A DNA stretch of 64,000 nt from Ignavibacteriales bacterium (GTDB lineage: Bacteria > Bacteroidota > Ignavibacteria > Ignavibacteriales > Ignavibacteriaceae), in assembly GCA_015709675.1 (NCBI GenBank), contig CP054182.1:310001-374000 (forward strand), written 5' to 3'. A program made the translations under genes and the position numbers. Under the pieces are notes generated by a model, which saw only the letters and a program-made list of their open reading frames with translations, had not been told where the DNA came from and did no database searches. Shown here in pieces: positions 47,028 to 59,850 of the stretch; position 1 is the stretch's first letter, and every line of letters starts with the position of its first letter.

Positions 47028-48086
47028 ATGAAACTTATAAAAAAACAACTGACCGGCAAAAGTTATTCAGTGGTCAACAAATATGCAGGATACGATAATT
47101 ATCTTGCCGTTGACTGGTCGCAAAGCACCATGGCAATTGCAATGATAAGAGCACCCTATCAGAACCGTATCCGGGTAACCGAGCACCCAAGCTCTCTGAA
47201 GCAGCTTCAGCAACTGCTCAAGAGTCTGTCCGGTAAAACCATTATTGCCTTAGAGGAAAGCTCTCCGGCTCACTGGCTCTTTGTCAATTTGTACGATTAC
47301 GCTGCAAAAGTGGTTATCTGTGATCCTTATCAGAACCGACTGTTAACCCAGGGGCCAAAGACTGATCCTATTGATGCTCAAAAACTCAGCACCTTGCTTT
47401 ATAACGGCATGCTCAAGGAAACTTACCATGCAAAGAAAGAAGAATTTGAGTTGCGAAAATATATCAGCGCTTACAGTGATCTGATAAAACGAGGGGTAAG
47501 GCTCCAGAATCAGAAAACAGCATTTCTTGGGCAGGACGGACTTTCCCGGAAAACCCGGAATCTTTCTAAAGCAGAGAAAGAAAGTACAAAGTTTATCCTC
47601 AACCAACTGGAAGAAGATATTCAGCAGTATGAGAAGCAGAAGAAGGATTTTGAAGTTCTCTTCACCGGGCTGTGTAAGAAAAACAAAACTCTGAAAAACC
47701 TGATGAGCATACCTGGTATCGGTATAATTGGTGCAGTAACCATCCTCGGAACGGTTATAGATGTTAAACGCTTCGACAGTGTTGGAAAATTTCTTGCCTA
47801 CTCCGGATTGGTTACTCACGTTAAACAGAGCGGAGGAAAGACTTACGGGCACAGGAAAGGTCGATACAGCAGAATCCTCAAACAGGCATTTAAGGTTGCT
47901 GCTTCAACTTGCATTAACGGTGAGAATGAATTATCGGCTCTTTACAAGGATCTGCTAAAAAGAGGTGTAAGCCAGCACAATGCAAGGAATGCTGTAGCAC
48001 GGTATGTTGCAAGGGTTACTTTTGGCATTCTCAAAACAGAAAAACCATTTATCAGTAAAAAAACAAAGGTGAAATCCAAGAAGTAA
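47028..48086 (+). CDS. IS110-family transposase (DEDD)
   Basis: 352 residues, intact. The N-terminal RuvC-like DEDD domain has the acidic residues in LAVDWSQ, ALEES and KTDPIDAQKL; the C-terminal transposase_20 domain has SIPGIGIIGAVTILG and the serine region LAYSGLVTHVKQSGGKT. IS110 enzymes are RNA-guided recombinases that use a bridge or seeker RNA from the non-coding end. A coiled coil (about 165-225) separates the domains. It is the only gene of the element. A plus-strand gene in a minus-strand region supports acquisition. Confidence 0.96.
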   Translation: MKLIKKQLTGKSYSVVNKYAGYDNYLAVDWSQSTMAIAMIRAPYQNRIRVTEHPSSLKQLQQLLKSLSGKTIIALEESSPAHWLFVNLYDYAAKVVICDPYQNRLLTQGPKTDPIDAQKLSTLLYNGMLKETYHAKKEEFELRKYISAYSDLIKRGVRLQNQKTAFLGQDGLSRKTRNLSKAEKESTKFILNQLEEDIQQYEKQKKDFEVLFTGLCKKNKTLKNLMSIPGIGIIGAVTILGTVIDVKRFDSVGKFLAYSGLVTHVKQSGGKTYGHRKGRYSRILKQAFKVAASTCINGENELSALYKDLLKRGVSQHNARNAVARYVARVTFGILKTEKPFISKKTKVKSKK

Positions 48087-48498: not shown

Positions 48499-48632
48499 GG
48501 CCAATTTACGGGTACAAAGACATTAACGACTTTAAGGACATGAAGGACTATATATCTGAAGGGTCATTCTTCATTTTTCATTTTTCATTTTTCATTCTTC
48601 ATTTTTCATTCTTCATTTTTCATTCTTCATTA
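48499..48632. repeat. Composite repeat, right part, and TTTTTCATTCTTCAT run
   Basis: Resumes the repeat interrupted by the IS (ggccaatttacgggtac, then acgactttaaggacatgaagg, as at 60380-60440), followed by a pyrimidine-rich ttcatttttcattc run (48565-48632) that contains the stop codon of the response-regulator gene. Confidence 0.85.
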
Positions 48633-49271
48633 GTTCCCCCCGTTTTCCGCGAACATCTTTAAGGCATATTTAAGCAATGCTGAGTTACCCGTAATCCCGA
48701 GTTTTTTGCAGATGTTGCTCCGGTGATTTTCCACCGTCTTGCGGGCGACAAACATCTCCTGCGCAATCTCCTCGCTGCTCTTTCCCTTGCTTATCAGAAA
48801 GAGAATGTTCCTTTCTGCCGGAGTCAGATTCCCCTCCCGTTCGGTTTCCTGCTGGCTTTCGAGCAGCACCTGAGAAACTTCGGGACTTAAGTAAAAGTTA
48901 TCCTCATACACCGCTTCCACGCATTTCAGTATATCCAGCACCGCGCTTTCTTTAAGTATATATCCTTTTACCCCCAGGTCAAAGACTTTTTTAATCAGCG
49001 CGGCTTCCTTAAACATGGTCAGGAAAATAATGCGGGTTTTATGGTGTTCCGAAAGAATAATCTTCGCGGCCTCAAAGCCGTCCATATCGGGCATCTGTAT
49101 ATCTAGAATGGCAATGTCAGGTTTCACACTCCGCACCAGTTCAATTGCCTCGCGGCCGTTATCCGCCTGCCCCGCTACGGTAACACGACCGCTTGCGGTA
49201 AGCACCTGGGAAACCGCCTGCCTGATTAGCGGATGATCATCAGCAAGGATTACACGGATTTCTTCTTTCAT
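48630..49271 (-). CDS. NarL/LuxR-type response regulator
   Basis: 213 residues. Receiver domain with acidic pair Asp11/Asp12 (LADDHPL), phospho-acceptor Asp57 (AILDIQMPDMDG) and the conserved lysine in GYILKES; output domain is a LuxR-type helix-turn-helix (about 149-205, LTPAERNILFLISKGKSSEE and TVENHRSNICKKLGI). The ATG overlaps the stop of the kinase gene by four bases (ATGA), so the two are a coupled pair. The stop TAA is the first part of an AT-rich repeat. Targets are unknown. Confidence 0.95.
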   Translation of the reverse strand: MKEEIRVILADDHPLIRQAVSQVLTASGRVTVAGQADNGREAIELVRSVKPDIAILDIQMPDMDGFEAAKIILSEHHKTRIIFLTMFKEAALIKKVFDLGVKGYILKESAVLDILKCVEAVYEDNFYLSPEVSQVLLESQQETEREGNLTPAERNILFLISKGKSSEEIAQEMFVARKTVENHRSNICKKLGITGNSALLKYALKMFAENGGN

Positions 49272-51532
49272 TTTACCTCAAAAGGGACGGAAATATCAAT
49301 CACGGTTCCGTTTCCCGGCGATGTGTTAATTAGTATGGCGCCCCTCACAAATTCTGCACGGTTTATAATGCTTCTCAGCCCGAATCCTTCCGATTCTTTC
49401 ATGGTTTTTTCATAGTCAAATCCTCTGCCGTTATCACGGATAAGGATGTGCACATAATCCTCCCGCTTATGCAGTCCCATATATACATCCAGTGCATCGG
49501 AATATTTGATGATGTTGTTAAGTGCTTCCTGATAGATTCTGAACAGATTTACCTCGCTCTCAACTGAAAAAAGTCCGGAGATATCATCTACATCGCAGAC
49601 GATATTTTTCTGCGAAGCCTGTCTTAGCCGTTCAGCTGTCCCCTTAAGCACCTCAGCAAGGCCAATCCGCTCAATGTGAACGGGCCGCAGATCAAAAGAA
49701 ATCGCACGCAGAGTATCCAGCACAGTCGAAGCAGTCGCGCTGATTTCGTTAATCTGGGTATAGGCAAAGGAATCAATCTGCTGGTTCTGCAGTGCAAGCA
49801 GCGCCCGGTTTTTAATGAGCAGAAGATCCTGCCCGAGTCCGTCATGCAGTTCTCCGGCTATTTTTTTCCGCTCTTCTTCCTGATAGCCGATAAGCTGCCG
49901 TGTATATGATTTCTGTTCTGCGATTTTAATTTTATTCTCTTCTTCGATTTTTTGTTCTGTAATATCCTGCACCGTTCCGTACATTTTTATCACCTCCCCG
50001 TTTTCATTTTTTCTGATAAACTTTTTTATCCGTATCCAGTGCACCGTGTGATCTGGAATGATTCTGAATTCCATCTCCCTGATATTCAGCAGTTCCTGCC
50101 CTGCATCAAGGAATCTCCTCAGTCTGGGAGCATCCTCCTTGTGGCAGAGTGCGGGTATAATCTTCTCAAACGCCTGCATACCCGGTTCAATATATACCCC
50201 TCTGAATATCGAGGGGAACTGATCGGAATAGGTCACCGATTTAGCGGCAAAATCCATCTCCCAGTTAGCAAGATGGGCGGTTGCCTGTGCATCCTTCAGG
50301 TTTTTTTCACTCTCGGTTAGAATTTTGTTCAGGCTTGAAAGCTCTTCCTGTTTGCGCAGGATTTCAGCGTTGCGGGTATCAAGCTGGGCATTCATTTTTT
50401 TAAGCTTTCTGTTCCCCACATATACCACTCCCAGCGCCGCGGCTATAATCAGGGTCAGTGCAGCGAGCAGTTTGTTTAGATTTTTTTCAGCATCCGCAAT
50501 CTGAGAAAGCCGCTCACTTTCGGTTTTTAAGTATTTGTTTTCAAGTTCTTTTCTTTCTGATTCATATTTAACCCTCATTTCGCTTATCTGGCTGTTAATC
50601 TGCTCAAGATACAGGCTTTCCATTACCAGAATCATCAGCTGCATATATACCGTTGATTTGCGGTGATCGCCCATAAGCCGGTACACCCGGGCAGTATTTT
50701 CAAACCCGTTCCTCAGAAGAGTTTTAAACCTCCCCTCTTTACTAAGCGCAACCGACCTCTGAAACACCCTGAGCGCCTGCTGATAGCTCCCCTCCCGAAC
50801 CATCCGGGCCCCCTGGTTATTCAGCAGGAGCACCAGAAGCCAGTTGTCTCCTGATTTTTCAGCCGACTTTACCGCAAGATCGTATCTGCCCGCCAAATTA
50901 TACGAAGAAGCAAGTGCCGAATGATAATCTTTATTCTGAGGATGTTCCATGACCAGTCGTTCCTGCATCGCGGTCGCTTTTTGCAGGTATTCAGCACGCT
51001 CATCAGCTGATTTGCCGTTTATAGCGGAAATATAATAATAATAAGAAAGCAGAAAATTATCAGATGAATTTTTAAGAACGCTGCCTGCCTCCGAATAATA
51101 ATCGGTTGCAGGATCAATATCGGCAAAGTAATGTACGCGCCCCAGTTTCAGTTTTACAAACGCCGCCATAAGTGAGTCTTGCCCCTTTTCATAGAGCCGG
51201 AGAGCAGTAAAATAATAGCTGAGTGCCCTGTTATAATCGGAGGAGCGGAAATAAATATCCCCGATTCTGATGTTTGCCCAGGCTTTTACCGCGTAATCAG
51301 TATCGGCCGCTCTGTGTATTTCATCAGAATACTCTAAAACTTTTTCGCTGTACTCCCTGCCAAGGGTGGAGAACTCACTCTTGATTATTCTCCTGATCTT
51401 TTCTGTCTGAGTAAAAGGATCATAGAGCTCAAGACTGTCCAGCGAAGACTGTGCGATCAGTGAGACCGAAAGCACGAAAAAGACGAATACGAATTTGTTA
51501 TGTATGGTAATTATACTTACTCCTGATTTCAT
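49268..51532 (-). CDS. Hybrid TPR-PAS sensor histidine kinase (HisKA_3)
   Basis: 754 residues. Signal/anchor (about 10-28), a periplasmic tetratricopeptide region (about 50-300), a coiled coil, a membrane segment (about 355-373), a second coiled coil, a PAS domain (about 415-530, HLANWEMDFAAKSVTYSDQFP and a PAC-type MYGTVQDITEQ) and a NarX/DegS-type core: His563 (GELHDGLGQD), N-box QEALNNIIKYS and G-boxes DNGRGF and GFGLRSI. It should autophosphorylate and pass phosphate to the overlapping response regulator. TPR input suggests sensing of an exported or peptide signal; the ligand is unknown. Confidence 0.95.
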   Translation of the reverse strand: MKSGVSIITIHNKFVFVFFVLSVSLIAQSSLDSLELYDPFTQTEKIRRIIKSEFSTLGREYSEKVLEYSDEIHRAADTDYAVKAWANIRIGDIYFRSSDYNRALSYYFTALRLYEKGQDSLMAAFVKLKLGRVHYFADIDPATDYYSEAGSVLKNSSDNFLLSYYYYISAINGKSADERAEYLQKATAMQERLVMEHPQNKDYHSALASSYNLAGRYDLAVKSAEKSGDNWLLVLLLNNQGARMVREGSYQQALRVFQRSVALSKEGRFKTLLRNGFENTARVYRLMGDHRKSTVYMQLMILVMESLYLEQINSQISEMRVKYESERKELENKYLKTESERLSQIADAEKNLNKLLAALTLIIAAALGVVYVGNRKLKKMNAQLDTRNAEILRKQEELSSLNKILTESEKNLKDAQATAHLANWEMDFAAKSVTYSDQFPSIFRGVYIEPGMQAFEKIIPALCHKEDAPRLRRFLDAGQELLNIREMEFRIIPDHTVHWIRIKKFIRKNENGEVIKMYGTVQDITEQKIEEENKIKIAEQKSYTRQLIGYQEEERKKIAGELHDGLGQDLLLIKNRALLALQNQQIDSFAYTQINEISATASTVLDTLRAISFDLRPVHIERIGLAEVLKGTAERLRQASQKNIVCDVDDISGLFSVESEVNLFRIYQEALNNIIKYSDALDVYMGLHKREDYVHILIRDNGRGFDYEKTMKESEGFGLRSIINRAEFVRGAILINTSPGNGTVIDISVPFEVK

Positions 51533-51625: not shown

Positions 51626-52402
51626 TTATTTGAGCAAATTCATTTTTATTACCCTGCTGCTTTTGCCTGCAGTCAGACGGCTGAAATAAATCCCCGCCGG
51701 AAGATTATCTCCGCTGAAATCATAAGAATATGAACCGGCAGCAAGCTCTCCTTCTTCAAGAAGAGCAGCTCTTTCACCCGAGAGGGTAAATACCTCAAGC
51801 TTAACCTGATTCCCTTCAGCAAGTTCAAATGAAATGCGGGTCGAAGGGTTAAACGGATTCGGATAATTCTGACGGAGTGTGAACGAAGATACACCCTCTG
51901 CATCCTCGTTCAGTCCCGTCGTCCCCTGAACGGTAATACTGCCGTTCTGCGGGGTAAATGTTACCTGCTGATTACTTCCGTTGCGAAGATCAAGCAGGAC
52001 AAAATTCAGCGGTGAAGTACCTTCCTGAAGTGCCTTAAATCTGATTTCAAACAGCCCCCCGCTTCCGGCTGCTGTTCCTGTGCCGAGGATCGCCTCGTCA
52101 ACCTGAACAACTCCGTTTGCGGAGTCCGCTTTCGAAAAAAAGAAGGTGGAAAAAGGTCCGCTCAGGAATTCCATCTTTTTGATCGAAATACAGCGGAGCA
52201 TCTCCGTCTGATAAGAAACCTTTACGGAATAAACCTTCAGCTCTGCCGCATTACTTACGAGTATTCTCACCGCCGCCGTATCACCAACTGAAACCACCGC
52301 GGGCGAGGCAGATACCGTAATCTGCTGAGCTGTCAATGAAGAAGTAAACAGCAACAGAGCCGAAAGAAAAATCCAGGAAAAAAGCTTTTTAGATATATTC
52401 AT
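51626..52402 (-). CDS. T9SS cargo: cohesin-like domain protein
   Basis: 258 residues with a signal peptide (about 1-25). One cohesin-like domain (about 27-155): the opening VSVGDTAAVRILVSNAAEL, the middle GVVQVDEAILG and SGGLFEIRFKAL match the cohesin fold. A T9SS domain with QNYPNPFNPST follows. Cohesins bind dockerins; three neighbouring proteins carry dockerin-like pairs, which suggests a partner. It is last in the row of T9SS genes and follows a hairpin. Confidence 0.85.
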   Translation of the reverse strand: MNISKKLFSWIFLSALLLFTSSLTAQQITVSASPAVVSVGDTAAVRILVSNAAELKVYSVKVSYQTEMLRCISIKKMEFLSGPFSTFFFSKADSANGVVQVDEAILGTGTAAGSGGLFEIRFKALQEGTSPLNFVLLDLRNGSNQQVTFTPQNGSITVQGTTGLNEDAEGVSSFTLRQNYPNPFNPSTRISFELAEGNQVKLEVFTLSGERAALLEEGELAAGSYSYDFSGDNLPAGIYFSRLTAGKSSRVIKMNLLK

Positions 52403-52419
52403 GTCTCGCTGAAATTTTT

Positions 52420-52449
52420 GCGGAGAGAACCAGTGTGTGTCCTCTCCGC
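52420..52449 (-). terminator. Hairpin GCGGAGAG/CTCTCCGC after a T9SS gene
   Basis: Perfect 8-base stem with a 14-base loop, 14 bases after the stop at 52463, followed by AAAAA on the gene strand. Not a classical terminator. Confidence 0.5.
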
Positions 52450-52462
52450 TTTAACTGCAATA

Positions 52463-54316
52463 TTATTTAATAAACATCATTTTTCTTACTGAGGTAAAAC
52501 CGCCGGCGGTAATTTTGTACATATATACACCGCTGGTCAGTTCTGATGCGTCAAAGTTTCTGGTGTGAACTCCGGCATCAAGCATCTCATTGTTCACCAG
52601 AACAGCTACTTCTTTACCCAGACTGTTATATACCTGAAGCGTTACCTGTGAAGCTGAAGGAAGCGCGAAAGAGATAACGGTTGACGGGTTGAACGGATTC
52701 GGGTAGTTCTGTGAAAGTTCATACGCATCAGGAGTGATGCTGAGCGCTGAGCTGCCCTTCATCAGAACAGGGATATCCTGGTTAAAGCTGTTTCTTGCGA
52801 TTACTGCTTCAAGTTCAAGTGATGACTTGTTCTCAAATACCAGATATGCAACAATTCCCTCAGCGGAGATTGCCTTTTTATCAGCACCGATTACCGCTGC
52901 GTCAATCTGTACCAGATCACCTTCCTGACGGAAGATTACAAAGCCGTTTTCATTATTCAGTCCGCCTGCTTTTTCAACTCCTTTGAGTGTCATTCCGGTT
53001 CTGAAGCTGAAGGAAAGTCCGCGCACATCTTCAACACTTCCTGAGAGATAGACAGGAACACGTACCGTACTTCCAACGATTTCTTCACCGAGAGTAACGT
53101 TAATCGGATTAACTTTAACCTTCGGCAGTTCGTTGCCGGCTGATTTACCATAACCAACGGAGAAGATAATCAGGTCTTCAAAGTTGATGTTACCGTCAGC
53201 GGTCGGTAAAGCAAAGTAGTTACCGGATGCATTGGTAGGACCAACGTCAAACTTTGATTTATAAAGAGTGCTAACCTGAGCGTGATTGCTCCAGTATGCA
53301 GATGCAAATAAACTGAGGTCGTTAATGTTGATAAGACCGTCACCGGTTGTTTCAACTGATGCACTTGCAAAGTCACCGAGATAGAATTTTACATCTGCTG
53401 CAAAATCTTCGGTTTCAACTTCTACCTGCTCATTGTTAGTAACATCATACTGACGGAAGTCGAGTGAATCAATGGTGATTTCCATGTGACCCGGCTTCAG
53501 CATGGTAAAGATCAGGCGTGCAAGATATTTGCCTGAACCCGGAGTTACGTTAATAGCTGAAGAGATATTTGAAGCATTAACTTTCAGTCTTCCTGCACCG
53601 GTTGCCTGGGTATAGAAGATACCGCTTTCAAAAAGGTTGTTGTCACCTGCTGAAGCTGTAAGAGTTGCTTTGGTTGCATCAAAATTAACAACAAAACTGG
53701 AAGCTACCAGACCATCATCACCGGTTGGCACTACATAAAGAGTGCATTTAGGGGCATTGTAGGTCCAGTCAGGGCTGGTTGGAGTCCAGCTGAATGGTGA
53801 AGTGATCGGCGAACCGAAGCCAACTTTTGGATATGCAATGTTCGCATCAACATCTGAACTGTTTTCAGTAAGATATACACCTGTTGCACTTGAAGCAAAA
53901 GTTCCTCCGCTCACAGTCAGTGTATAGTTTGCTGTACCAAACATGGGGGCAGATACCACGACTATATAGTATCTTGCAGGATTTAGGGCCATAACAAACG
54001 GATTACTTGCATTACCATCTCCGTCTCTCTGATAACCGACTGATCCGCAGTTAGCATCTGTATGGGAGAAAACTTCAAAAAAAGTTCCCGTAGCCGCAAT
54101 GGTTACTGTACCGGATGTACCAGGCGCAATATACCAGTAGTCGTACCCATCAACAAACTCTTCGACAGAACCGCTGTAAACAGTATTGGCATCTATAAAT
54201 TTAATGCCCGCCTGACCGCAACTATTGTTAGGTTCGGTTTCTGTTACCTGTCCGAAAAGGTTGTTTGTGCCGAGCAGCATGAACCCGCAAAGCAGAAGAA
54301 AAGAAAGTTTTTTCAT
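52463..54316 (-). CDS. T9SS cargo: PPC-like + cohesin/dockerin/cohesin-like protein
   Basis: 617 residues with a signal peptide (about 1-22). After TETEPNNSCGQA a PPC-like beta-sandwich (about 25-135) is seen. A cohesin-like region (about 150-310) is followed by two dockerin-like calcium loops, GDGLININDLSLF (about 330) and DGNINFEDLIIF (about 380), a second cohesin-like domain (about 405-525, TLGEEIVGSTVRVPVYLSG) and a T9SS domain with QNYPNPFNPST. The C-terminal 430 residues are nearly identical to those of the two genes upstream; only the N-terminal module differs. It is likely a secreted or surface scaffold component. Confidence 0.9.
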   Translation of the reverse strand: MKKLSFLLLCGFMLLGTNNLFGQVTETEPNNSCGQAGIKFIDANTVYSGSVEEFVDGYDYWYIAPGTSGTVTIAATGTFFEVFSHTDANCGSVGYQRDGDGNASNPFVMALNPARYYIVVVSAPMFGTANYTLTVSGGTFASSATGVYLTENSSDVDANIAYPKVGFGSPITSPFSWTPTSPDWTYNAPKCTLYVVPTGDDGLVASSFVVNFDATKATLTASAGDNNLFESGIFYTQATGAGRLKVNASNISSAINVTPGSGKYLARLIFTMLKPGHMEITIDSLDFRQYDVTNNEQVEVETEDFAADVKFYLGDFASASVETTGDGLININDLSLFASAYWSNHAQVSTLYKSKFDVGPTNASGNYFALPTADGNINFEDLIIFSVGYGKSAGNELPKVKVNPINVTLGEEIVGSTVRVPVYLSGSVEDVRGLSFSFRTGMTLKGVEKAGGLNNENGFVIFRQEGDLVQIDAAVIGADKKAISAEGIVAYLVFENKSSLELEAVIARNSFNQDIPVLMKGSSALSITPDAYELSQNYPNPFNPSTVISFALPSASQVTLQVYNSLGKEVAVLVNNEMLDAGVHTRNFDASELTSGVYMYKITAGGFTSVRKMMFIK

Positions 54317-54345
54317 TGTGTCCTTTATTTTGTTGTTTTTAATTC

Positions 54346-54400
54346 TGTCCTGCTGGCCTTTTACCGGTTTGCCCTCCGGCTGACAGAGTTCAGCAGGACA
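54346..54400 (-). terminator. Hairpin TGTCCTGCTG/CAGCAGGACA between two T9SS genes
   Basis: Perfect 10-base stem with an inner CCGG/CCGG stem, 30 bases after the stop at 54430 and about 30 bases before the next ATG. Confidence 0.5.
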
Positions 54401-54429
54401 TAATTTATTAGTTCTTCATTAGTTAAAGA

Positions 54430-56850
54430 TTACTTGTTTAAGATCATTTTATGCGCAGCTGAGAATTTTCCGGCGCTCAGTTTGTAGATATATACTCCGC
54501 TGGTGAGCTTGCCCGCGTCAAATGCTTTGGTGTGAACTCCCGCTTCCATCATCTCGCCATTGATCAGTACCGCCACTTCTTGGCCGAGTGTGTTGTAGAT
54601 CTTCAGCGTTACCTCTGAAGCCTGAGGCAGAGCAAAGCTGATTGCCGTTGACGGGTTGAACGGATTCGGGTAGTTCTGTGAAAGAGCATATGCGTCAGGT
54701 GTAATGCTCAGAGCTGAGTTGCCCTTCATCAGAACCGGGATATCCTGGTTAAAGCTGTTTCTTGCGATTACTGCTTCAAGTTCAAGTGATGACTTGTTCT
54801 CAAATACCAGATACGCAACAATGCCCTCAGCCGAGATTGCTTTTTTATCAGCACCGATTACCGCTGCGTCAATCTGTACCAGATCACCTTCCTGACGGAA
54901 GATTACAAAACCGTTTTCATTATTCAGTTCACCAGCTTTTTCAACTCCTTTGAGTGTCATTCCAGTTCTGAAGCTGAAGGAGAGTCCTCTTACATCTTCA
55001 ACACTTCCTGAGAGATATACTGGTACACGTACAGTGTTTCCAACAATCTCTTCTCCGAGTGTAACGTTAATCGGATTAACTTTAACTTTCGGCAGTTCGT
55101 TGCCGGCTGATTTACCATAACCAACGGAGAAGATAATCAGGTCTTCAAAGTTGATGTTGCCGTCAGCGGTCGGTAAAGCAAAGTAGTTTCCTGATGCATT
55201 GGTCGGACCAACGTCAAATTTTGATTTATAAAGAGTGCTTACCTGAGCGTGGTTGCTCCAGTATGCGGTTGCAAATAAGCTGAGATCGTTAATGTTGATA
55301 AGACCGTCACCGGTGGTTTCGCTGCCTGAAGAAGCGAAATCGCCAAGATAGAATTTAATATCTGCATCCCCGGGATCGGTTGCAATGGAAACCTGCTCGT
55401 TGGCTGCGATATCATACTGTCTGAAATCGAGTGAGTCAAGGGTGATTTCCATGTGACCTGGTTTGAGCATGGTGAAGATCAGGCGTGCAAGATATTTACC
55501 TGAACCCGGAGTTACGTTAATAGCTGAAGAGATATTTGATGCATTAACTTTCAGTCTTCCTGCTCCGGTTGCCTGTGTATAGAAGATACCGCTGTCAAAC
55601 AGGTTATTGTCACCTGCTGAGGCGGAAAGAGTTGCTTTGGTTGCATCGTAATTCACAACAAAGCTTGTTGCCACGATGTCTTCGCTTCCGGCAGGCACAA
55701 TATATACGGTACATTTCGGCGCGTTATAAGTCCAGTCAGGGCTTACCGGTGTCCAGCTGAAAGGCGAGGTAATAGGAGAACCGAATCCCACTTTAGGATA
55801 TAAAACGTTTGCGCCGTTATCATTATTGTTCTGCGTAATATATACTGGTATAACAGGCAGACGTGAATTGTTCCTCAGGTCAGGATAGTCTCCGCTGATC
55901 TGCCATACAGTGGTGAAATCCCATCCGGTGTACGTTCCCTGCGTTTTCATCTGTGCAGTGGTTTTTCCGGTTCCTCCTGCTGAAGAAGCCTGGCCGGAGG
56001 TTTCTGTATCCCAGAAGCAGTTGGTTGCTGATGCTGTCATCATGCTGCCAATAAGGCCTCCCACCAAAGACGAACCGCTGACAGCACCGGTTGAATAGCA
56101 GTTAACGAGATTTGTTGATACAATACGACCTGCAAATCCCCCCGTCTGTCCTGATGTGGAAGTTACACTTCCGGTTGCATAACAGTTAGTGATAGTGTTA
56201 TTTGAACCGCTAAATCCAATAAACCCGCCCGTATATAACCCGGTCGTAGTAACAGTACATGTAGAATAACTTTCAGATATAGTACTGTTGGAAGGCGCCC
56301 ATCCTATCAATCCCCCCATATACTCCACACCCGTAACCGAACCTGTTGAAGAACATTTACTGATAGTAGCTTTAGTTATTTTTCCTGCAAGCGCACCGCA
56401 CACCCAGTTTGAGGTGATTGAGACAGAAACAAGTTTAACATTTGATATGACCGGTGTAACTATATCATCCCCGACATAGGCAAACAGCCCGATATAATGC
56501 TGGCCGGGTCTGTTTATGGTTAACCCGGTAATACTATACCCCTGACCATTGTAGCTCCCCAAAAACGAAGTTGCCTCGGTAGCTCCAATAGGATTCCATC
56601 CCAAACCGCCATTCCAATAAGCACCGCCGGAGTTTCCGGTTTCATGGCTCAGATCAATATCAGCAGTCTGGATAAAATGGGAAGTCCGATAATCACGAAC
56701 ATTATTCAGATGTGCCGCTGTGGCAACCTGATACGGATTACCTGAAGTTCCGTCACCCCCTGCAAATGACTGGGCGGAGACGGTAATGGCTGCTGCAAAA
56801 AACAGCGCCGAAGCAAGAAAGAAACGAAGGACTTTCAAGGTACCTCTCAT
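54430..56850 (-). CDS. T9SS cargo: GLUG repeats + cohesin/dockerin/cohesin-like protein
   Basis: 806 residues with a signal peptide (about 1-26). Repeated GLUG motifs (GGLIGWAPSNSTISESYS, GGFIGFSGSNNTITNCYATG) span about 110-300. Then cohesin-like 1 (about 345-505), the dockerin-like pair (about 515-570), cohesin-like 2 (about 590-705) and the T9SS domain (about 715-806). There is no ribosome site before the ATG at 56850; codon 5 is TTG here and GTG in the paralogue, each four bases after AGAGG, so translation may start there. GLUG repeats occur in adhesins and IgA-protease-like proteins. The 3' half is nearly identical to that of the genes at 52463 and 57433. Confidence 0.9.
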   Translation of the reverse strand: MRGTLKVLRFFLASALFFAAAITVSAQSFAGGDGTSGNPYQVATAAHLNNVRDYRTSHFIQTADIDLSHETGNSGGAYWNGGLGWNPIGATEATSFLGSYNGQGYSITGLTINRPGQHYIGLFAYVGDDIVTPVISNVKLVSVSITSNWVCGALAGKITKATISKCSSTGSVTGVEYMGGLIGWAPSNSTISESYSTCTVTTTGLYTGGFIGFSGSNNTITNCYATGSVTSTSGQTGGFAGRIVSTNLVNCYSTGAVSGSSLVGGLIGSMMTASATNCFWDTETSGQASSAGGTGKTTAQMKTQGTYTGWDFTTVWQISGDYPDLRNNSRLPVIPVYITQNNNDNGANVLYPKVGFGSPITSPFSWTPVSPDWTYNAPKCTVYIVPAGSEDIVATSFVVNYDATKATLSASAGDNNLFDSGIFYTQATGAGRLKVNASNISSAINVTPGSGKYLARLIFTMLKPGHMEITLDSLDFRQYDIAANEQVSIATDPGDADIKFYLGDFASSGSETTGDGLININDLSLFATAYWSNHAQVSTLYKSKFDVGPTNASGNYFALPTADGNINFEDLIIFSVGYGKSAGNELPKVKVNPINVTLGEEIVGNTVRVPVYLSGSVEDVRGLSFSFRTGMTLKGVEKAGELNNENGFVIFRQEGDLVQIDAAVIGADKKAISAEGIVAYLVFENKSSLELEAVIARNSFNQDIPVLMKGNSALSITPDAYALSQNYPNPFNPSTAISFALPQASEVTLKIYNTLGQEVAVLINGEMMEAGVHTKAFDAGKLTSGVYIYKLSAGKFSAAHKMILNK

Positions 56851-56975
56851 GAATTAGTTGTAAAAGGACAATTGTAGTGCTGATTTCCGGCTTAAACTCT
56901 CGAATTTCTCAACACACTGACAGAACTGCCGGAGATTCACGGTGTCAAATTAGCCCTTACCTGAGAAGGGGAAAA

Positions 56976-57016
56976 TAGGGGCTGGCTCTCATTTTTTGGG
57001 GCTTCTAGGGGCTGGC
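56976..57016 (-). promoter_or_regulatory. Tandem GCCAGCCCCTA sites upstream of a GLUG gene
   Basis: Two copies of the same 11-mer 30 bases apart, about 126 bases before the start codon. The arrangement is repeated before the paralogous gene (59976-59986 and 60007-60017, 31 bases apart). Spacing of about three helical turns suits two copies of a DNA-binding protein. Confidence 0.45.
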
Positions 57017-57057
57017 ACCTAGATAATTAGTAATGAGTAATGAGGAATTAGTAATAC

Positions 57058-57325
57058 TTTAGAACATGATTAAAGGATGGACAGGATGAGCAGGATAGAC
57101 AGGATTATATCACAATATCCCTTTGCGTCAAAGCGCCTTTGCGCGAGGGTAAGGTATTAGAACACGATTTAAGGATAGACAGGATGAGCAGGATCACCAA
57201 AGCAGCTCCGAAGGAGCGAAATATTAATAACAATGCGTTCTAAAAATATGTCCAAGCCCTGTAGGGGCGGCACAAAAATCAGCGTTCATCCGCGCTGCCC
57301 TGCATTCGTTTAATCCGCGGCCCGT
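57058..57325. repeat. Composite intergenic repeat, second copy
   Basis: Two aggatgacaggatgagcagg-type units, ctttgcgtcaaagcgcctttgcg, gaaggagcgaaatatt...aggggcggcac, and atccgcgctgccctgc...taatccgcggcc, in the same order as at 46.6 and 60.1 kb. The trailing ggacatcaaggac module is missing. Confidence 0.85.
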
Positions 57326-57372
57326 TGGCGAAGAACATGCAGATCGTCCTTGCACAATACAGCCTGGCATAA

Positions 57373-57409
57373 AATAAAAAACCCCGCCTCCTTTTCAGAA
57401 GACGGGGTA
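57373..57409 (-). terminator. Rho-independent terminator of the second GLUG gene
   Basis: Read leftward, ACCCCGTCTTC pairs with GGAGGCGGGGT (two wobbles) and is followed by TTTTTTATTTT; 24 bases after the stop at 57433. Confidence 0.9.
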
Positions 57410-57432
57410 CCTCCTAAAAATCTGTCTGACTC

Positions 57433-59850
57433 TTACTTCAGAAGATTCATCTTTTTAACTGCTGAGAAGCTTCCTGCAGTCAGTTTATATATATAAACTC
57501 CGCTGGTCAGATTTCCTGCGTCAAATGCTTTGGTGTGAATTCCTGCTTCCATCGTCTCGCCATTGATCAGTACTGCCACCTCCTGGCCGAGTGTGTTGTA
57601 GATCTTCAGCGTTACTTCTGATGCCTGGGGCAGTGCAAAAGAGATCGCTGTTGACGGATTGAACGGATTCGGATAGTTCTGTGAAAGAGCATATGCATCA
57701 GGTGTGATGTTCAGAGCTGAGTTGCCCTTCATCAGAACAGGGATATCCTGGTTAAAGCTGTTTCTTGCGATTACTGCTTCAAGTTCAAGTGATGACTTGT
57801 TCTCAAATACCAGATATGCAACAATTCCCTCAGCGGAGATTGCCTTTTTATCAGCACCGATTACCGCTGCGTCAATCTGTACCAGATCACCTTCCTGACG
57901 GAAGATTACAAAACCGTTTTCATTATTCAGCTCACCAGCTTTTTCAACTCCTTTGAGGGTCATTCCGGTTCTGAAGCTGAAGGAAAGTCCTCTTACATCT
58001 TCAACACTTCCTGAGAGATAGACAGGAACACGAACGGTGTTTCCAACAATCTCTTCTCCGAGTGTAACGTTAATTGGATTAACTTTAACCTTCGGAAGTT
58101 CGTTACCGGCTGATTTACCATAACCAACAGAGAAGATAATCAGGTCTTCAAAGTTGATGTTACCGTCTGCGGTAGGAAGTGCAAAGTAGTTTCCTGATGC
58201 ATTGGTAGGACCAACGTCAAATTTTGATTTATAAAGAGTGCTAACCTGAGCGTGATTGCTCCAGTATGCAGATGCAAATAAACTGAGGTCGTTAATGTTG
58301 ATAAGACCGTCACCGGTGGTTTCATCACCTGAACTTGCGAAGTCACCGAGATAAAATTTAATATCAGCTTCATGTTCTGTGGCTGATAAAGCAACCTGCT
58401 GATTCTCATCTGTATCATACTGTCTGAAATCAAGATCAGAAAGCGTAACTTCCATATGGCCGGGTTTCAGCATGGTAAAGATCAGGCGGGCAAGATATTT
58501 ACCAGAGCCGGGTGTTACATTTATTGCCGAGGATATATTTGAGGTATGAATCTCTAAACTGCCTGCACCGGCTTCCTGTGTATAGAATATACCGCTCTCA
58601 AACAGGTTGTTATCACCTGCTGCGGCTGAAAGCGTTGCTTTGGCTGCGTCAAAGTTTACGGTAAAGCTGGAAGCAACAATTCCTTCACTTCCGGTTGGTA
58701 CAACATAGATGGTGCACTTTGGTGCATTGTAGGTCCAGTCAGGGCTGACCGGAGTCCAGCTAAACGGTGAAGTGATTGCTGAGCCGAATCCAACTTTCGG
58801 ATATAAAACATTTGCATTAACATCGCTGCTGTTGCGGGTAAGGAAAACAGAAACAGCAGGGAGTCTGGAATTAAGCCGGAGATCCGGATAGTCACCGCTG
58901 ATCTGCCATATGGTGGTGAAATCCCATCCGGTATACGTACCCTGCGTTTTCATCTGTGCAGTGGTTTTTCCGGTTCCGCCTGATGAAGAAGCCTGACCGG
59001 AGGTTTCTGTATCCCAGAAGCAGTTATTTGCAGAAGATGCGTGAAAAACACCGCCAAATCCGCCAACAGGGGCGGGGCTGCTTACTGCACCGGTAGAATA
59101 GCAGTTGGTAAGTGTGCTTGAACGGGGCTGACCGATAAATCCTCCGGTTGTTCCTGCTGTTGAAGTAACATTTCCGGTAGAATAACAATTCGTTATTTCA
59201 TTATACACATCAGCATATCCCACAAAACCGCCGTTCTGGTGCTGTGATGAAAATACCGTTACATTAGAAAAGCTTTCTGTAACAATGCAGCCGTTTATCA
59301 GGGAGCCGATCAGTCCGCCTGTAAATCCGGTACCTGATACAGAACCTGATGCTGAAGATTTACTGATGTTGGTTTTTATTGCTCTGCCAACAAGTGCTCC
59401 GCAGTCACCGCCTCCGGTTATATCAACATCAATGAGTTTAACATTTGAAATGGACGGCGTTACAACATCATTCCCGGCATAACCAAACAAACCAATGGTC
59501 CAGGTTGCCGGTCTGTTAATAAAAAGACCCGTGATGCTGTATCCGTTTCCGTTATAGCTGCCCAGAAAACGGCTGGCGTTATTGCCGATCGGATTCCATC
59601 CGGAACCGCTGTTCCAGAATGCACCGCCGGATGTTCCGGTCTCTGTGGTCAGATCAATGTCTGCAGTCTGGATAAAATAGGATGAAAGATAGTTGCGGAC
59701 ATCATTAAGCTGTGCCGCTGTGGCAACCTGATACGGATTACCTGAAGTTCCGTCACCCCCTGCAAATGACTGGGCGGAGACGGTAATGGCTGCTGCAAAA
59801 AACAGCGCTGAAGCAAGAAAGAATCGAAGAACTTTCACAGTACCTCTCAT
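57433..59850 (-). CDS. T9SS cargo: GLUG repeats + cohesin/dockerin/cohesin-like protein, paralogue
   Basis: 805 residues with the same plan as the gene at 54430: signal peptide, GLUG repeats (GGLIGSLINGCIVTESFS, GGFVGYADVYNEITNCYSTG), cohesin-like 1, dockerin-like pair (GDGLININDL and DGNINFEDL), cohesin-like 2 and T9SS domain with QNYPNPFNPST. Signal peptides are the same except for the L/V at residue 5, and the upstream 150 bases are also shared, so the gene and its promoter were duplicated together. GLUG regions have diverged more than the C-terminal 430 residues, implying gene conversion or selection for a constant C-terminal block. Probably a surface or secreted scaffold with an alternative binding face. 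Confidence 0.9.
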   Translation of the reverse strand: MRGTVKVLRFFLASALFFAAAITVSAQSFAGGDGTSGNPYQVATAAQLNDVRNYLSSYFIQTADIDLTTETGTSGGAFWNSGSGWNPIGNNASRFLGSYNGNGYSITGLFINRPATWTIGLFGYAGNDVVTPSISNVKLIDVDITGGGDCGALVGRAIKTNISKSSASGSVSGTGFTGGLIGSLINGCIVTESFSNVTVFSSQHQNGGFVGYADVYNEITNCYSTGNVTSTAGTTGGFIGQPRSSTLTNCYSTGAVSSPAPVGGFGGVFHASSANNCFWDTETSGQASSSGGTGKTTAQMKTQGTYTGWDFTTIWQISGDYPDLRLNSRLPAVSVFLTRNSSDVNANVLYPKVGFGSAITSPFSWTPVSPDWTYNAPKCTIYVVPTGSEGIVASSFTVNFDAAKATLSAAAGDNNLFESGIFYTQEAGAGSLEIHTSNISSAINVTPGSGKYLARLIFTMLKPGHMEVTLSDLDFRQYDTDENQQVALSATEHEADIKFYLGDFASSGDETTGDGLININDLSLFASAYWSNHAQVSTLYKSKFDVGPTNASGNYFALPTADGNINFEDLIIFSVGYGKSAGNELPKVKVNPINVTLGEEIVGNTVRVPVYLSGSVEDVRGLSFSFRTGMTLKGVEKAGELNNENGFVIFRQEGDLVQIDAAVIGADKKAISAEGIVAYLVFENKSSLELEAVIARNSFNQDIPVLMKGNSALNITPDAYALSQNYPNPFNPSTAISFALPQASEVTLKIYNTLGQEVAVLINGETMEAGIHTKAFDAGNLTSGVYIYKLTAGSFSAVKKMNLLK

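Follow-up and report, generated by a model that had tools for sequence, protein, structure and literature searches.

Cohesin and probable dockerin modules combined in predicted type IX secretion cargo of an Ignavibacteriales bacterium, with a neighbouring lone-cohesin gene: a tentative surface-display cassette

The window analyzed here is a stretch of 64,000 nucleotides from an Ignavibacteriales bacterium (GenBank assembly GCA_015709675.1, contig CP054182.1, positions 310,001 to 374,000 of the forward strand), the genome being one 4.21-Mb contig; coordinates below are those of the window. Four open reading frames (ORFs) are located on its minus strand in the order D, C, B, A, with intergenic gaps of 582, 113 and 60 bases. 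Proteins D (805 amino acid residues; 57433..59850), C (806 residues; 54430..56850) and B (617 residues; 52463..54316) were found to share a core, in which a cohesin (coh1), a module that is very likely a dockerin and a second cohesin (coh2) precede a sorting tail of the type IX secretion system (T9SS). Protein A (258 residues; 51626..52402) consists of a single cohesin and a tail, and its start looks like a signal peptide by eye. A first-pass annotation, made from the sequence alone, had proposed that cohesin- and dockerin-like modules are combined in three T9SS proteins beside a lone-cohesin protein, and the ORFs, the loop motifs, the fold and the profile evidence confirm this observation. 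Our preferred reading, to which we give a probability of roughly 0.4, is that the cluster is a non-cellulosomal display cassette of T9SS cargo, in which the dockerin of B, C and D would dock in trans onto the cohesin of A or of an A-like protein.

The cohesin of A (51917-52327) was matched by PF00963 (E = 6.9e-7; 30 bits versus a cut-off of 24.1). In B, C and D the Pfam scan gave no cohesin or dockerin match up to E = 1, the dockerin family PF00404 was not reached by the window proteins, and the NCBIfam model dockerin_GC was found below threshold only (E = 0.015–0.085); the identification of their modules therefore rests on profile–profile comparison, on an AlphaFold2 (AF2) model with fold searches, and on profile searches of the PDB. 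When compared with the lone-cohesin family, the profile of the core (12 sequences) matched through coh1 (D, 58357-58830; C, 55354-55827; B, 53387-53860) (96.8%, E = 3e-10), and the profile of coh2 (D, 57718-58104; C, 54715-55101; B, 52748-53134) matched as well (97.4%, E = 1e-11). Against PDB sequences, the core profile gave seven matches up to E = 10, six of them cellulosomal by name, headed by the cellulosome-anchoring cohesin 3ul4 (E = 0.0011) and followed by the X-dockerin chain 4wi0_B (E = 0.016).

The AF2 model of the core of D, built on a 15-row alignment, had a mean predicted local distance difference test score (pLDDT) of 74 and a predicted template modeling score (pTM) of 0.59. By ten-residue blocks, the pLDDT was 41–62 over the first 40 residues, 75–93 over the remainder of coh1, 46–65 in the dockerin and 80–89 in coh2, except for blocks of 68, 74 and 49. 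When this model was searched with Foldseek, the top 27 rows were all cohesin entries, and seven of the best 50 rows, from rank 28 on, were other beta proteins, SspB/BspA and integrin among them. As calculated by VIA-align, coh1 of D was superposed on 5nrm_A (Z = 13.9; 124 residues, 2.1 Å) and coh2 on 1ohz_A (Z = 12.0; 122 residues, 2.4 Å); 47 of the best 50 rows were titled cohesin, and 3kcp, 4fl4 and 2o4e are cellulosome or C. perfringens interaction-module entries. Both flanking domains are thus modelled with the cohesin fold, and coh1 and coh2 are taken as cohesins. The coh2 of two relatives, L066 and L068, scored above the Pfam cohesin cut-off, so that the failure of B, C and D reflects a detection threshold and not a defining trait; the counterpart of B in the related genome G007 matched PF00963 below the cut-off (E = 0.0014).

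The middle module (D, 58111-58356; C, 55108-55353; B, 53141-53386) is a duplicated loop–helix repeat with acidic ligands. Both loop motifs of the first-pass annotation were located in all three proteins: GDGLININDL at 58285..58314 and ADGNINFEDL at 58141..58170 in D, with the corresponding motifs at 55282..55311 and 55138..55167 in C and at 53315..53344 and 53171..53200 in B. A profile of the module (20 rows) was searched against the PDB and gave six matches up to E = 10, all to dockerin-bearing chains, with E-values of 3.4e-4 (4wi0_B, the best), 1.3e-3, 1.9e-3, 0.47, 0.53 and 0.90, three of which are below 0.01; five were recognized as dockerin-bearing from the entry titles, and the sixth, 4fl4_A, we take to be a dockerin-bearing chain. 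Six key loop aspartates were kept across phyla in 19 of the 20 aligned rows, three of which are the window's own; in the exception, L060, the second aspartate position is an arginine and the first lies outside the aligned slice. The second repeat is the best-conserved part of the module.

The calcium loop of a normal dockerin has a spacing of n+11. In the window, the spacing is n+18 in loop 1 and n+24 in loop 2, corresponding to inserts of 7 and 13 residues; these are not canonical 12-residue loops, and the module is accordingly termed only an atypical, insert-bearing dockerin. Position 3 of these loops was seen by eye to be without the usual acidic or asparagine residue. Among the 20 rows, loop 2 was spaced n+23 in 13, n+24 in five and n+25 in two; loop 1 was n+18 in ten and of another noncanonical length in eight, over a range from n+11 (L067) to n+29, and was not measurable in L060. 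In two relatives, L052:3-9230 (genome G386) and L067:4940-10717, the first loop has the ordinary 12 residues and the second carries an insert (by eye in L052); these dockerins may represent a step between the ordinary and the double-insert form. The first-pass annotation had named loops packed inside one domain as the outcome that would speak against dockerins. The flanks were found to match separate cohesins; the dockerin modelled alone had low confidence (pLDDT 54; helices at 24-36, 43-48 and 72-87), and the Foldseek search with that model gave no PDB match, a result that was not counted against the dockerin identity. An insert in the second loop has precedent in Ruminococcus flavefaciens, in the available part of the published account: the ScaA dockerin has a 12-residue insert with the second loop at n+23, the commonest spacing here, and still binds calcium and cohesin, and the CttA dockerin has a 13-residue insert in its second loop (PMC5934362). 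Here, in contrast, most rows have an enlarged first loop as well, two cohesins flank the module and the host is a T9SS bacterium; the available part of the R. flavefaciens account gave no case in which both loops are enlarged (PMC5934362).

The T9SS type A tails were matched by PF18962 (Por_Secre_tail) at 51629-51886 in A (E = 2.4e-6), 52466-52726 in B (E = 3.8e-11), 54433-54693 in C (E = 2.2e-9) and 57436-57696 in D (E = 2.9e-10), the matches in B, C and D exceeding the Pfam cut-off. The genome holds at least 150 sorting-tail matches (150 of 241 candidates were scored) and one PorU sortase above the cut-off, at 972 bits. By a C-terminal Por_Secre_tail and a sortase in the genome, A to D are classed as predicted T9SS type A cargo. 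The heads differ: GLUG modules were found by Pfam in C (E = 8.4e-10) and D (E = 1.9e-6), as first annotated, and the PPC-like module assigned to the head of B gave no Pfam match up to E = 1. A fourth copy of the core was found in a 1146-residue protein at 891 kb of the genome, whose head we read as beta-helix-like, Pfam giving a sub-threshold Chlam_PMP match only. Differing heads on a common connector, and the cargo status itself, are thus borne out by the Pfam tails, the paralogue identities given below and PorU.

The search for dockerins in other T9SS cargo, suggested with the first-pass annotation, returned few. On the whole genome, the dockerin profile matched the four copies and one further sequence at E = 0.16, and PF00404 was above its cut-off only in three proteins at 3645-3652 kb, with two more matches below it; detectable dockerins are therefore not spread across the T9SS cargo. 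The three PF00404 proteins, encoded in tandem (L014:5277-14495; 3643-3652 kb), are T9SS proteins of the BNR/YCF48-propeller type, and their Pfam dockerins are of the ordinary kind. The third has Pfam cohesins flanking its dockerin. Most of this three-module stretch is matched by the second protein (41% identity, residues 5-294 of 329); in the first, the match is confined to the dockerin and the beginning of the domain after it. Cohesin support was thus obtained in six of the seven dockerin proteins of the genome, with the order cohesin–dockerin–cohesin in at least two BNR proteins. Since the Pfam scan found no catalytic domain in A to D and all four inserted-loop dockerins of the genome are on cohesin-bearing chains, a cellulosome was rejected for the window.

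The occurrence of the core is sporadic. In a sample of 116 close relatives, this genome included, four genomes matched at E <= 0.001; the match in G010 is a cohesin-X protein (see below), which leaves the core in three. The phylum sample gave matches in 8 of 395 genomes, this one counted, and in G386 the match is limited to the dockerin and a portion of coh2. A scan of genome contigs gave 15 loci, including Ignavibacteriae, Rhodothermia, Balneolales, Bacteroidota, KSB1, Neomarinimicrobiota, Eisenbacteria and a Nitrospira metagenome-assembled genome; a scan of viral contigs gave no match. Among 28 dockerin genes mapped, recognized cohesins were present on both sides in 22, on the downstream side only in one and on neither in five (L067 being cut by the contig end). 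Chance motif matches were rejected, because whole modules recur across phyla. One relative, L065, carries a GDSL-lipase head, so that the heads are not always non-enzymatic.

In G007, a family-level relative, a core with a B-like head, a second core whose head resembles the one at 891 kb, a lone cohesin, a tetratricopeptide repeat (TPR) histidine kinase and a LuxR-type regulator follow one another, which is the order core, core, lone cohesin, kinase, regulator of the window. After removal of duplicates, the 28 dockerin genes formed 24 clusters, six of which end at a contig edge and 18 of which have at least 1 kb of downstream room; a cluster was scored positive when a downstream cohesin gene without an inserted-loop dockerin lay on the same strand within 5 kb. 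Nine of the 18 assessable clusters were positive (the window, L048, L057, L059, L061, L062, L063, L064 and L066), and this linkage spans Ignavibacteria to Rhodothermia and KSB1. Counting only clusters whose dockerin protein has recognized cohesins, the proportion was 9/14; per gene, a lone cohesin was found downstream of 13 of 22 dockerin genes, and within 200 bases in eight of the 22. As a control, 2 of 25 T9SS-tail genes without these modules were followed by a cohesin gene, both inside cohesin-gene clusters. Two contigs of G459 with matches (C99 and C33) were left out of the mapping. In the phylum sample, the lone-cohesin profile, which may also match other cohesins, was found at E <= 1e-5 in 32 of 395 genomes, including six of the eight core genomes. 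The recurring lone-cohesin neighbour offers the dockerin another candidate partner, besides the self-assembly into chains that the first-pass annotation had suggested.

According to the preferred reading, B, C, D and the 891-kb copy would present differing heads, in none of which Pfam places a catalytic domain, on the coh1–dockerin–coh2 connector ahead of the type A tail. They would be exported by the T9SS and anchored at the outer membrane, with the two inserted loops predicted to bind calcium. The neighbouring gene A would supply a lone cohesin with a tail of its own; the dockerins of B, C and D may dock onto it, or onto an A-like cohesin, in trans, and A would thereby bring a number of heads together at the cell surface, with adhesion as the probable role. 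Several observations weigh against docking in trans. The lone cohesin did not follow in the other nine assessable clusters (L015, L051, L052, L053, L056, L065, L068, L069 and L071), among which is the 891-kb copy of the same genome; in L052, L053, L056 and L069 the dockerin protein is itself without a recognized cohesin. Four of the nine positive clusters (the window, L048, L057 and L059) supplied members for training the lone-cohesin profile; the other five are outside that training, and most of these contributed rows to the coh1 and coh2 profiles that were also used. The placement of all four inserted-loop dockerins on cohesin-bearing chains is equally fitted by pairing in cis or by chains, and A to D each have a tail, so that A is not needed as an anchor.

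Pairing in cis, which we hold to be rather unlikely, would have the dockerin packed on coh1 or coh2 of its own chain, giving a rigid three-module rod that lifts the head with no intermolecular assembly. In the AF2 model the last strand of coh1 ends at residue 159 and the LGD of the dockerin begins at 161, which leaves hardly any linker. The cohesins on both sides in 22 of 28 genes, the same order with ordinary dockerins in at least two BNR proteins and the absence of a lone cohesin from half of the clusters are in keeping with such a rod, but the recurring neighbour would go unexplained by it, and a dockerin with blocks of pLDDT 46–65 is not predicted to pack firmly, which argues weakly against it.

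The identities among the paralogues bear on a further alternative, binding of the dockerin to coh1 or coh2 of another copy. Over the six paralogue pairs of this genome (G000), coh2 was 91–96% identical in DNA, and the one pair of G007 was 92.5% identical; between the two genomes the value was 58–60% (three pairs computed). The second dockerin repeat was 92–96% identical within this genome, 91% within G007 and 75–76% between them. Little contrast was seen for coh1, the two halves being compared separately (68–84% within this genome versus 64–77% between genomes). The head of B was 55% and that of the 891-kb copy 73% identical in amino acids to its G007 counterpart, against 16–23% identity to other heads of their own genome, and part of the T9SS tail is homogenized too, less so in B. 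This pattern fits a common connector on which heads are exchanged; gene conversion alone, in the absence of selection, would also suffice to explain it. A GLUG-head-like T9SS protein at 893 kb (L015:8118-9686) has a head 89% identical in amino acids to that of C and is without the cohesin–dockerin block; compared with C, its sequence reads as head swapping between connectors. If copies bound one another, mixed-head polymers would be formed on the surface, as the first-pass annotation had proposed; in an extension of that idea, A would cap or seed them. Every chain does hold one plug and two sockets, and near-uniformity of repeat 2 and coh2 within a genome would be expected if all copies must fit each other. 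Gene conversion without selection would yield the same uniformity, however, and part of the tail is homogenized too; a T9SS tail on each chain speaks against long free chains; we regard such polymers as unlikely.

That the inserts disabled cohesin binding, leaving a calcium-stabilized spacer spread together with the T9SS tail through recombination, is improbable: the inserts of 7 and 13 residues, the atypical position 3 and the recombination of heads and tails among paralogues (as in F, the 891-kb copy) are in line with it, but 19 of 20 rows retain the six aspartates across phyla, the second repeat is conserved best, and the insert-bearing ScaA dockerin, in the available part of its account, still binds calcium and cohesin (PMC5934362).

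Several neighbouring features were also recorded. Directly downstream of A, on the minus strand, Pfam and the synteny with G007 place the TPR/HisKA_3 histidine kinase (49268..51532) and, adjoining it, the LuxR-type response regulator (48630..49271); as the order is kept in G007, the pair may provide dedicated regulation of the cassette. About 540 bases past the regulator is an ORF at 47028-48086, which resembles an IS110-type transposase. Seven more large ORFs with T9SS-type tails lie at 9385-41695, in a genome very rich in T9SS cargo. In other genomes, cohesin-X-dockerin-like proteins without a T9SS tail were observed beside lone cohesins (L048:7660-9039, L055:5068-6192, L055:7321-8460, L059:15338-16501, L061:8541-9707 and L064:5408-6601). 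Each begins with a cohesin, continues with a middle domain X and ends in two dockerin-like repeats; a [RK]HRNH[LI] motif was found in domain X of five of the six, and none of the Pfam or NCBIfam scans run gave a match to domain X. The end of the L059 protein scored just under the Pfam dockerin threshold (E = 3.8e-4; 21.0 bits versus 22.9), and those of L048 and L064 had no Pfam dockerin match. This genome has no full-length cohesin-X homologue, its sole match being the cohesin of A at 25% identity.

The premise of the first-pass annotation that cohesins and dockerins are normally on separate proteins is half true, as both are combined in published scaffoldins and archaeal proteins. In Pseudobacteroides cellulosolvens, as far as the available part of that source extends, one-cohesin, one-dockerin scaffoldins, some with PPC modules, carry both on a chain as here, but within a cellulosome with many dockerin enzymes (PMC5590126). 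Anaerobic methanotrophic (ANME) archaea have proteins that join a dockerin to as many as five cohesins on one chain, which are likewise not cellulose-related and whose partners are given as unknown; unlike the proteins described here they are archaeal, and T9SS tails, a paired lone cohesin and loop inserts are not mentioned in the portion of the source available (PMC9012536). Candidatus Stygibacter (Cloacimonadota), according to the part of the report available, resembles the present case in a cohesin protein with a conserved C-terminal domain, for which a T9SS review is cited, for attachment to its own surface; its system is one large tandem-cohesin scaffoldin with separate dockerin enzymes, whereas here both modules are on each core-bearing chain and A to D are without a Pfam enzyme domain (PMC8542988). 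Non-cellulosomal chains with both modules have therefore been published already, and the kind itself is not new. In the openly licensed literature, no earlier report was found of a double-insert dockerin, of the cohesin–dockerin–cohesin setting in T9SS proteins or of the linked lone cohesin. Proteins of this kind may already be among those listed by Peer and colleagues, who reportedly described noncellulosomal cohesins and dockerins in 2009.

Two sources, in their available parts, describe what cohesins and dockerins do outside cellulosomes as unknown or unclear (PMC5244752; PMC9012536). More broadly, and with less than even confidence, we suggest that a widespread T9SS surface assembly may exist apart from cellulosomes, in which double-insert dockerins would couple exchangeable adhesin heads to a dedicated lone cohesin or to each other, through species-specific coh2 connectors kept uniform by gene conversion. 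The window presents a compact set of few modules, with four clustered proteins, one candidate partner gene, a counterpart of the cluster in the related G007, and a class of dockerin that Pfam misses. The modules are tied to predicted T9SS display, and the question of the dockerin's partner is made tractable with a handful of recombinant domains.

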